64,000 nucleotides of DNA from positions 1,116,001 to 1,180,000 of the forward strand of contig NC_005027.1 in assembly GCF_000196115.1 (NCBI RefSeq), in the 5' to 3' direction. Shown piece by piece: positions 20,676 through 24,713 of the stretch; within the stretch, counting starts at the first letter, position 1, and each line of letters opens with the position of its first letter. A model generated the notes under the pieces. That model saw only the letters and a list, made by a program, of their open reading frames with translations, ran no database searches and was not told the origin of the DNA. The position numbers and the translations under genes are program-made. Source of the DNA: Rhodopirellula baltica SH 1 (GTDB lineage Bacteria; Planctomycetota; Planctomycetia; Pirellulales; Pirellulaceae).

Positions 20676-21986
20676 ATGGCTCGAAACAACCGTAAACGAA
20701 AGCGACGTCTTTCTTCACCTGCACCGCAGCCGCGGCCGCAGGTGGAGCAATCCACTGCTGGCAATATCGAAGGGACCGAAAATCCTTGTGATCAGGTCCC
20801 TGAATCGGCTTCCATGTCCACCAACGAAACCAATCCAAACGATCTGAACGACTCGCCGGAGGCGGATTCTCTCACGAATCCCGCTGCCATCGGCGACGCT
20901 TCTGCTGAACCAGCCGGCGCAACCGGCTCCGCGATCACTCGCGCCGACTTGGTCGAAGTCGTGTCAGATGCTGCGACGCCGATCGATGAACGCTTGCAGC
21001 AAATCGTTTCACTGCTTGGTGAATTCGAAGGCCGCCTGACATCACGTCTGGACGAATTCGCGCTCGCGCCGCTGACGCCTTACGAATCCGAACAATCGGC
21101 AGATCCCGAAATCTCGGCGGACGAATTCGAACAACCCGCCGACACCTGTGCGGTCTCGTGGCAGCCACCTGTTCCGACCGAAAACACAGACGAGCCAGCA
21201 GACCAGAACTACGACGGCGACCAGTACACCGAAGGCAAATACGGCCAAGGCGATTACTGCGACTTGATTCCGCCGGAAGTGCAGCGGTTGGAGGAGGAGT
21301 TGCAGGCCGAGCGAATGCGCTCGCATGAACTGCAAACCCAGAATGACCAGTTGGCGGCACAGCTTGCATCGAACGATGTCAAACGCACCGTGTCCGACAC
21401 GCAGGGCTGCGACGACTCAATGTCCTGGGAAGAGCGGAAGGCACGCATCCTGGAGCAGATGGAAAACGATGACTTCAACGCGGAGTCGTTCCTCGAGTCG
21501 CTGTCCCAACCCGCCCAAGAAATTGCAGCGTCGATCGATCCTGATTGGGTCAGCAATCCGGTTGCATTCATCGATGATTTGGTCGACCGGCTTTCACTCG
21601 CCGAACAGACGATTTCTGAACGCAATGCCGAGATCCACGAACTGCAGATTCTGCTGCAAAACCGCGCGGACACTCGCAACGACCAAGTCGCATTTGGTGC
21701 TGCTGCGATCGCCGGAATGGTCGACTGTGACGAATTGGTGATCGAAGAACGCGAACGCCTGGCGCAATTGAAATCCGAATGGGAAGACAAATTCCGAAGC
21801 GCTGAGATCGAAGTTTCGCTCGAACGAGCCAAGCTTTCGCGAGAGCGTCAGGAGTTGGCTCGTCGCACAGAAGAACTGGAAGAACAAATCGACCAGTTGC
21901 AGCGTGAAAAAAGAGATGCCCGCAACTACCCCAAAACCGGCCGCCGTTGGCTGGCCGAATTGGGATTGCAATCCGAGGGCGAATGA
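20676..21986 (+). CDS. Acidic coiled-coil protein of unknown function
   Basis: I do not recognise this 436-residue protein. The N-terminus is strongly basic (MARNNRKRKRRLSS), then a long acidic, low-complexity region (~40-190) leads into coiled coil. Heptad-rich stretches are EVQRLEEELQAERMRSHELQ, LAEQTISERNAEIHELQILL and, at the end, LARRTEELEEQIDQLQREKR. There is no signal peptide or membrane segment. It ends with KTGRRWLAELGLQSEGE. It is divergent from the xseB operon with a 170-base shared promoter gap. ATG at 20676 is used; ATG at 20814 is an alternative. A cytoskeletal or scaffolding role would be a guess. Confidence 0.7.
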   Translation: MARNNRKRKRRLSSPAPQPRPQVEQSTAGNIEGTENPCDQVPESASMSTNETNPNDLNDSPEADSLTNPAAIGDASAEPAGATGSAITRADLVEVVSDAATPIDERLQQIVSLLGEFEGRLTSRLDEFALAPLTPYESEQSADPEISADEFEQPADTCAVSWQPPVPTENTDEPADQNYDGDQYTEGKYGQGDYCDLIPPEVQRLEEELQAERMRSHELQTQNDQLAAQLASNDVKRTVSDTQGCDDSMSWEERKARILEQMENDDFNAESFLESLSQPAQEIAASIDPDWVSNPVAFIDDLVDRLSLAEQTISERNAEIHELQILLQNRADTRNDQVAFGAAAIAGMVDCDELVIEERERLAQLKSEWEDKFRSAEIEVSLERAKLSRERQELARRTEELEEQIDQLQREKRDARNYPKTGRRWLAELGLQSEGE

Positions 21987-22115: not shown

Positions 22116-22205
22116 TTATTTCTTGCGGTGACGAATCTTGGCTCGCATCCGTCGTTTCTTGCGGCCTACCTTGCGTCGTCCCTTGCCAGATTTCTTGGTA
22201 CCCAC
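22116..22205 (-). CDS. Tiny basic ribosomal-type protein (AURKAIP1/COX24-like)
   Basis: A 29-codon gene, too short for usual ORF finding. It starts with GTG at 22205, preceded by AGGAG ten bases upstream, a clear Shine-Dalgarno in a genome where these are rare, and an in-frame TAG stop directly before the start. The product is about 60 percent Arg/Lys: it begins MGTKKSGKGRRK and ends RMRAKIRHRKK. This matches the pattern of the ~30-residue bacterial AURKAIP1/COX24 domain proteins (related to mitochondrial mS38 and small-subunit proteins of the bS22 type), which sit on rRNA in the small ribosomal subunit. Assignment rests on composition and the KKRRMRAKxRHRKK ending, compared from memory. Confidence 0.65.
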   Translation of the reverse strand: MGTKKSGKGRRKVGRKKRRMRAKIRHRKK

Positions 22206-22371
22206 CTAGATCGCTCTCCTGGAAAAATGTTCGTGTTTTGCGTGCATGGCCAGGTTTCGCGTCTTGGCACCGCCATTCATTGGCGTTCCAAACTGGGGCG
22301 AATTCAAACACCGGCCGGATCGAATCGCGTAGCCTAGCAGAACGCCAGCGACCGACAAGGCGAGTTTTCCC

Positions 22372-22839
22372 TCAGGACGTCGAGGAATCTGTCCAAGGCA
22401 ACTCGATCTCGCCGCCTCGCCACGCCGCCAGAAAATCAGGCAGGCTGGGCAGCACGCCGCGTGCGGTGACGATGTCATTGGCCGTCATCCAGTGAACCTC
22501 AGCCACTTCGTCGGGATTCGGCACGGGATCGATGTGATCAGGAAATTCCGCCACCCACCACGCCAACCGAGTTCCCCAGGGCGTAACGCTTCGCCAACAC
22601 AAACGTGTCGGCGTCACATCAATCGCCAGTTCTTCTTGCATCTCGCGAATCAGAGCCTCTTCTTCGCTCTCACCAGCCTCGATGCCTCCGCCAGGCAAAC
22701 ACAACTTGCCTGGTGCATTGACGGTCAACGAGCGGCGGATGATCAGCAACTTATCGGCGCGGAACATCACTCCGATCACACCGCGTTTGCGGTTGCGATG
22801 TCTTGATTGGTTCGGTTTCGTATTCGGCAATCCAGTCAT
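22372..22839 (-). CDS. NUDIX hydrolase
   Basis: A 155-residue MutT/NUDIX protein. The Nudix box is GGGIEAGESEEEALIREMQE-ELAI, with the REmqEE metal-binding core, preceded by GVIGVMFRADKLLIIRR and LCLPGGG. These enzymes cleave nucleoside diphosphates linked to another moiety; the substrate cannot be told from sequence. No extra domain is present. It lies alone on the minus strand, 107 bases beyond the neighbouring membrane-protein gene's stop, and could be co-transcribed with that gene. Confidence 0.92.
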   Translation of the reverse strand: MTGLPNTKPNQSRHRNRKRGVIGVMFRADKLLIIRRSLTVNAPGKLCLPGGGIEAGESEEEALIREMQEELAIDVTPTRLCWRSVTPWGTRLAWWVAEFPDHIDPVPNPDEVAEVHWMTANDIVTARGVLPSLPDFLAAWRGGEIELPWTDSSTS

Positions 22840-24091: not shown

Positions 24092-24271
24092 ACCCGGTGT
24101 TCGAAATCTTCCCCGAGATCTTGGCAATGAAAATGAGTTTTGTGGGAGGGAAGTGGAAAGGGGGCTTGATAGTGGAAAGGGGCACAGGATCACAGAACCA
24201 CAGGATCATGCAAATCCTTAGGATCCTGATTCATGCAGCAAACCCCGATCTTACCAGCATCCCAAAAACCT

Positions 24272-24483
24272 GTAGCACGGTGGTCCCCACCGTGACCCAA
24301 ACACCATCCGCACCAGAGTAGAACAGTTGTCCCCAACTGTTCCGCCAACCAGAGTTCTCCGTCCAAGTCTCGCCCCACCCAAACCAAGCTCCAACTCATC
24401 TGGAGCTCGCATCCCTGCCCCACCTCGCAAACCGCTCGCGACGTCGATTCAGTGCTCGTCTCGGTGGGGGACCACCGAGCTAC
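24272..24483. repeat. Composite GTAG-hairpin element, unit 1
   Basis: A 212-base unit bounded by inverted hairpins. It opens with GTAG-CACGGTGG-TCC-CCACCGTG and closes with the near-inverse CTCGGTGG...CCACCGAG-CTAC. Inside, from 24318, is a third hairpin: GTAG-AACAGTTG-TCCC-CAACTGTT. Every hairpin starts with GTAG at its foot. The unit is repeated directly 230 bases downstream. Confidence 0.85.
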
Positions 24484-24501
24484 AGAAAACGTCAAAAACC
24501 T

Positions 24502-24713
24502 GTAGCACGGTGGTCTCCACCGTGACCCAAACACCATCTGCACGAGAGTAGAACAGTTGTCCCCAACTGTTCCGCCAACCCACGTTCTCCCTCCAAGCCT
24601 CGCCCCACCCAAACCAGCCTCCAACTCATCTGTGTCACGCATCCCTGACCCACTGCGCAAACACCTCGCAACATCGACTCAATGCTCGTCTCGGCGAGGG
24701 ACCACCGAGCTAC
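24502..24713. repeat. Composite GTAG-hairpin element, unit 2
   Basis: A second 212-base copy with the same three hairpins and a spacer that is clearly related to, though diverged from, that of unit 1. Together the two units fill most of the 910-base gap between the membrane-protein gene and the GH57 gene. The remaining 24714-25001 shows no gene or repeat I can identify and should hold the promoter of the GH57 gene. Confidence 0.85.

Follow-up and report, generated by a model that had tools for sequence, protein, structure and literature searches.

A near-universal 29-codon gene of the Planctomycetia encodes an overlooked ribosomal-type peptide, with bS22 as the leading but unproved assignment

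Known bS22 proteins are 33 amino acids long in mycobacteria, 30 in Flavobacterium and 28 in the Borrelia chain. The Borrelia protein consists of 61% Lys/Arg, is encoded by an unannotated gene with a GUG start, and was the one ribosomal protein that tryptic LC-MS missed in Borrelia; in published structures the helix of bS22 is bent, whereas that of eL41 is straight (PMC10618245). In mitochondria, mS38/AURKAIP1/Cox24 places a basic helix at the site occupied by bS22 (PMC6582356), and eL41 is a 25-residue basic helix at an analogous site (PMC10618245, PMC10085706). None of the papers searched dealt with bS22 or other small ribosomal proteins in planctomycetes. We analysed a 64-kb stretch of the Rhodopirellula baltica SH 1 chromosome (64,000 nt, hereafter the window), in which the following features concern us:

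22116..22205, minus strand: small basic-peptide gene of 29 codons with GTG start and TAA stop, recognized by its frame, homologues and codon pattern
22206..22208, minus strand: in-frame TAG, abutting the GTG at 22205-22203
22216..22220, minus strand: Shine-Dalgarno sequence AGGAG, 10 nt before the GTG
22372..22839, minus strand: NUDIX hydrolase gene upstream of the small gene, given as context only, with no functional partnership claimed

The gene product is VGTKKSGKGRRKVGRKKRRMRAKIRHRKK, with the first residue read as fMet. A first-pass annotation, made from the letters alone, had proposed a hidden 29-codon gene for a strongly basic peptide here, with a good Shine-Dalgarno sequence and a GTG start right after an in-frame stop; its frame proved exact, the strand, which it left unstated, is minus, and both signals lie where it had seen them. 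As the TAG stands immediately 5' of the GTG, an in-frame start further upstream is excluded, and the same TAG-then-GTG arrangement recurs in the congeners that we examined. An alignment of seven species from the genus shows AGGAGA unaltered throughout. Lys and Arg make up 59% of the 29 residues, and among the 686 open reading frames of 20-60 codons in the window this is the only one that reaches a share of at least 50%. Neither a sigma-70 promoter pattern before the gene nor a terminator after it was found. Three other species of the genus have the NUDIX neighbour too, and no neighbouring gene is held in common across the wider family.

Conservation of the frame in other Pirellulaceae, which had been suggested as a check, was borne out. 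Strong tblastn matches were obtained in 57 of 60 relatives of the order (E 2e-10 to 3e-7); two genomes (G024 and G043) gave no match, and one congener (G006) gave a weak one only (E 0.68). G006 also has no NUDIX neighbour; a gap in this draft is therefore the probable cause. A profile built from 15 rows matched 240 of the 248 Planctomycetia genomes at E <=0.1, nearly always in one copy. In a set of 30 loci from the order the protein sequence hardly changes: we counted 6065 synonymous against 755 non-synonymous codon differences (about 8 to 1), and per-site differences of 0.071, 0.026 and 0.558 at codon positions 1, 2 and 3, so that the third position differs some 8 to 20 times as often as the other two. 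Nucleotide identity falls to background (~0.26) beyond the frame and the Shine-Dalgarno sequence, and a Shine-Dalgarno-like motif precedes 163 of 170 distinct loci. The 29-codon frame is a genuine conserved protein-coding gene.

The gene is near-universal in the class Planctomycetia and has variants in other lineages of the phylum, with peptides ranging from 26 to 31 amino acids. Outside the class, MGKPRRRRKIGSKKRHMRWKIRHKIS and its relatives come from genomes labelled Phycisphaerae, Phycisphaerales and Sedimentisphaerales, MAFKPRRRRKIGSKKRRMRKLMRKKK from another family, and MASGKKTGRGRRKIGSKKRRARRRRRKKRGK from a genome that is the sole member of its class in the collection. One scan, made with the exact peptide RRKIGSKK, gave 80 named loci, each from a genome labelled as a planctomycete; with such a query, carriers in other phyla are still possible. 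The aligned N-termini place the start at the same position across loci, and the codon used there differs between lineages: the distinct loci of Pirellulales have GTG (33), TTG (6) or ATG (1), thus 39 of 40 are non-ATG, whereas 129 of the 130 loci elsewhere have ATG (47 ATG and 1 GTG in other Planctomycetia, 82 ATG outside the class). That a whole lineage should have turned to weak start codons while the gene itself is near-invariant is a notable observation.

Searches of Pfam, NCBIfam and the PDB sequences, run with the single sequence and with profiles, gave no match. The COX24_C profile PF08213 found nothing in the genome, nor did it match any member of our broad alignment at its curated cut-off; the eL41 profile PF05162 did not match this alignment either. 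The first-pass annotation had counted a missing profile match among the grounds for refuting its proposal, which does not hold: the bS22 proteins of F. johnsoniae and B. burgdorferi, both seen in solved structures, escape PF08213 as well, which makes this profile a poor guide to bS22 in the wider sense. We conclude that the family has been overlooked, is genuine and of ribosomal type, and is common to Planctomycetia and other planctomycetes.

In F. johnsoniae (PDB 7jil) and B. burgdorferi (PDB 8fmw), bS22 resembles the planctomycete form in having 28-30 residues, ~60% Lys/Arg and a stand-alone gene, in not being found by PF08213, and in the layout K[IV]....KRKKRxRxNRH; missing annotation and a GUG start are further points that the Borrelia gene shares with ours (PMC10618245). 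The planctomycete core K[IV]G.KKR..R.K[IV]RH can be aligned to K[IV]..HKRKKRxRxNRH of bS22 with one deletion, and RHKVATHKRKKRARANRHKKK of F. johnsoniae, written by eye over RRKVGRKKRRMRAKI-RHRKK of the window, shares 11 identical residues with it over 21 columns, mostly basic ones. Unlike these two proteins, the planctomycete form has no counterpart of the conserved HK pair, one residue fewer before RH, and an invariant G in K[IV]G; it also lacks their N-terminal MP[SC]GxK, the nearest sequence being MASGKK in G297. The bS22 proteins of Mycobacterium and Cutibacterium (PF08213) are likewise short, basic and stand-alone, but their MGSVIKKRRKRM start and RVQRRK end are absent from the planctomycete form and no profile match links the two. 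In mS38/AURKAIP1/Cox24 the basic domain ends a much longer protein, with no detectable sequence match. AlphaFold2 predicted one helix (residues 8-25) after a loose N-terminus for a 30-residue homologue (L119; mean pLDDT 77). In length, composition and predicted helicity the peptide thus has what is seen in bS22-like proteins (~28-33 residues, ~60% Lys/Arg, helical), yet a single predicted helix does not discriminate between the bS22 and eL41 shapes.

Since basic peptides of this kind match one another through composition alone, profile comparisons were scored against column-shuffled, composition-matched controls, in a first run and in a second at a lenient and a stricter gap cost. Pooled bS22 had the best z among the comparators in the first comparison (z 1.6, p 0.066) and gave p 0.165 and, at the stricter gap cost, 0.50 in the second. 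The Flavobacterium/Borrelia type gave p 0.21 in the first comparison and 0.515 at one gap cost of the second; at the lenient one it scored best of the comparators (z 2.0, p 0.037), which is not significant by itself given the many comparisons made. For bL37 we obtained p 0.15-0.17, for eL41 p 0.35-0.50 (not above shuffles) and for bL34 and bL36 p 0.24 or more in the second comparison. Alignment of the planctomycete family to bS22 with hhalign produced an uninformative local match of 9 columns only. Hence bS22 appears as the best-scoring comparator in most settings, with a similarity that is not robust (p 0.04 to 0.5) and not convincingly significant. Membership of eL41 by sequence similarity to PF05162 was rejected.

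Of 294 genomes sampled within the phylum, 17 matched the canonical bS22 profile; the planctomycete-form profile found 35 in the same set at E <=0.05, one or two of these being doubtful; the weak hit in G297 was judged a real variant by inspection. Neither profile finds the loci of the other, and the two forms share no neighbourhood. They do not occur together in any of the 294 genomes, where ~2 such cases would be expected by chance; as zero co-occurrence arises by chance in about one in eight cases (~13%) at these counts and the genomes are related, this lends only mild support to replacement of canonical bS22 by the planctomycete form. About 240 of the genomes have neither form, and in these lineages the site may be empty, differently filled, or occupied by more divergent forms that were missed. 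The phylum itself contains two types of bS22, one resembling that of Flavobacterium and Borrelia (PCGRKRR.KINKHKRKKRxRxNRHKK; L148, L150, L151, L153) and one of the mycobacterial MGSVIKKRRKK kind (L087-L094), in different planctomycete families.

The peptide is very probably a tiny ribosomal protein, to judge from its size, charge, single copy and near-invariance; the ribosomal character claimed at first sight is the best reading. Its location in the ribosome we consider likely, and the bS22 site as its place there has a slightly better than even chance. Taken as a whole, a functional single-copy ribosomal protein that most likely sits at the bS22/mS38/eL41 site as a shortened bS22 is the account we favour, with a somewhat greater than even probability. 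It is consistent with protein-level selection, with the essentially single-copy, class-wide occurrence, with the known bS22 pattern (26-31 residues, 59% Lys and Arg, a stand-alone gene) and with the lack of any genome with both forms among the 294; against it stand the empty PF08213, NCBIfam, Pfam and PDB searches, the lack of cross-detection, and the stricter gap cost, at which bL37 (p 0.15) outscores bS22 (p 0.5). The resemblance to AURKAIP1/COX24 (mS38/bS22) noted in the first-pass annotation thus survives as the leading reading, unproved, in that bS22 leads the comparators in most settings while PF08213 is silent and the shuffle-controlled similarity is borderline at best. In the small subunit, the protein would lie among 16S helices h2, h27, h44 and h45, against 23S H68. 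A flexible basic N-terminus would be followed by one helix whose Lys and Arg residues would offset the charge of rRNA phosphates and thereby steady the decoding region, with GRRKVGRKKRRMRAKIRHRKK predicted to fit the h44/h45/h27 pocket; such a protein would be a lineage-specific shortened bS22.

Conservation, size and composition would equally suit a ribosomal protein unrelated to bS22 at another rRNA site, e.g. the bL37 pocket or an undescribed one, and bS22 similarity is not significant after composition control, with bL37 scoring about as well as pooled bS22. Against this possibility, which we hold to be rather unlikely, the one bS22-type match that aligns over its full length keeps the terminal RH-K, and no sampled genome has the peptide together with canonical bS22. 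A similarly doubtful proposal is that the Planctomycetota have a ribosomal family of their own, non-homologous to bS22, at the same or a new site, and that the GTG/TTG switch in Pirellulales tunes or autoregulates its synthesis. A conserved basic peptide that binds nucleic acids elsewhere than in the ribosome (RNA chaperone, nucleoid protein or assembly factor), or one of antimicrobial type, would explain the strong positive charge, and bS22 of C. acnes inhibits the growth of other bacteria in vitro (PMC10085706); this is improbable, as the peptide has no hydrophobic signal segment and its 20-residue core is near-invariant and single-copy across the class, which would be typical of ribosomal proteins. 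That the frame is untranslated, as a conserved RNA or by chance, is very improbable: no point in its support was found, an Rfam search of the locus matched no RNA family, conservation is lost outside the frame except at the Shine-Dalgarno sequence, and the codon pattern, with its third-position variation and 8:1 synonymous changes, amounts in practice to a refutation. A form of bTHX (Thx) is hardly credible, as profile scores lie within or below shuffled expectation (p 0.99 in the first comparison, 0.36 and 0.93 in the second), the SYG/TYG..RP motif is absent and membership by similarity to PF17070 was rejected, despite a superficial GKG...R similarity and a Thx slot that appears vacant, since none of 15 relatives has a Thx match passing the Pfam cut-off.

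The ribosomes of Planctomycetia probably include a protein that neither the Pfam nor the NCBIfam library has. Its exact sequences are needed to build the first ribosome maps of planctomycetes and to complete the databases used in mass spectrometry, where trypsin cuts the peptide into pieces too small for detection. The sequences also suggest that the bS22/mS38/eL41 site is filled more widely than profile searches report.

Two further features of the window may be mentioned. Convergent with the small gene lies a gene for a 436-aa protein (20676-21986, plus strand) with a basic N-terminus, much predicted coiled coil and no Pfam match. At 24263-24713 (plus strand), between a DUF4013 gene and a GH57 amylase-type gene, a 230-bp unit is present in two head-to-tail copies that match at 88%.
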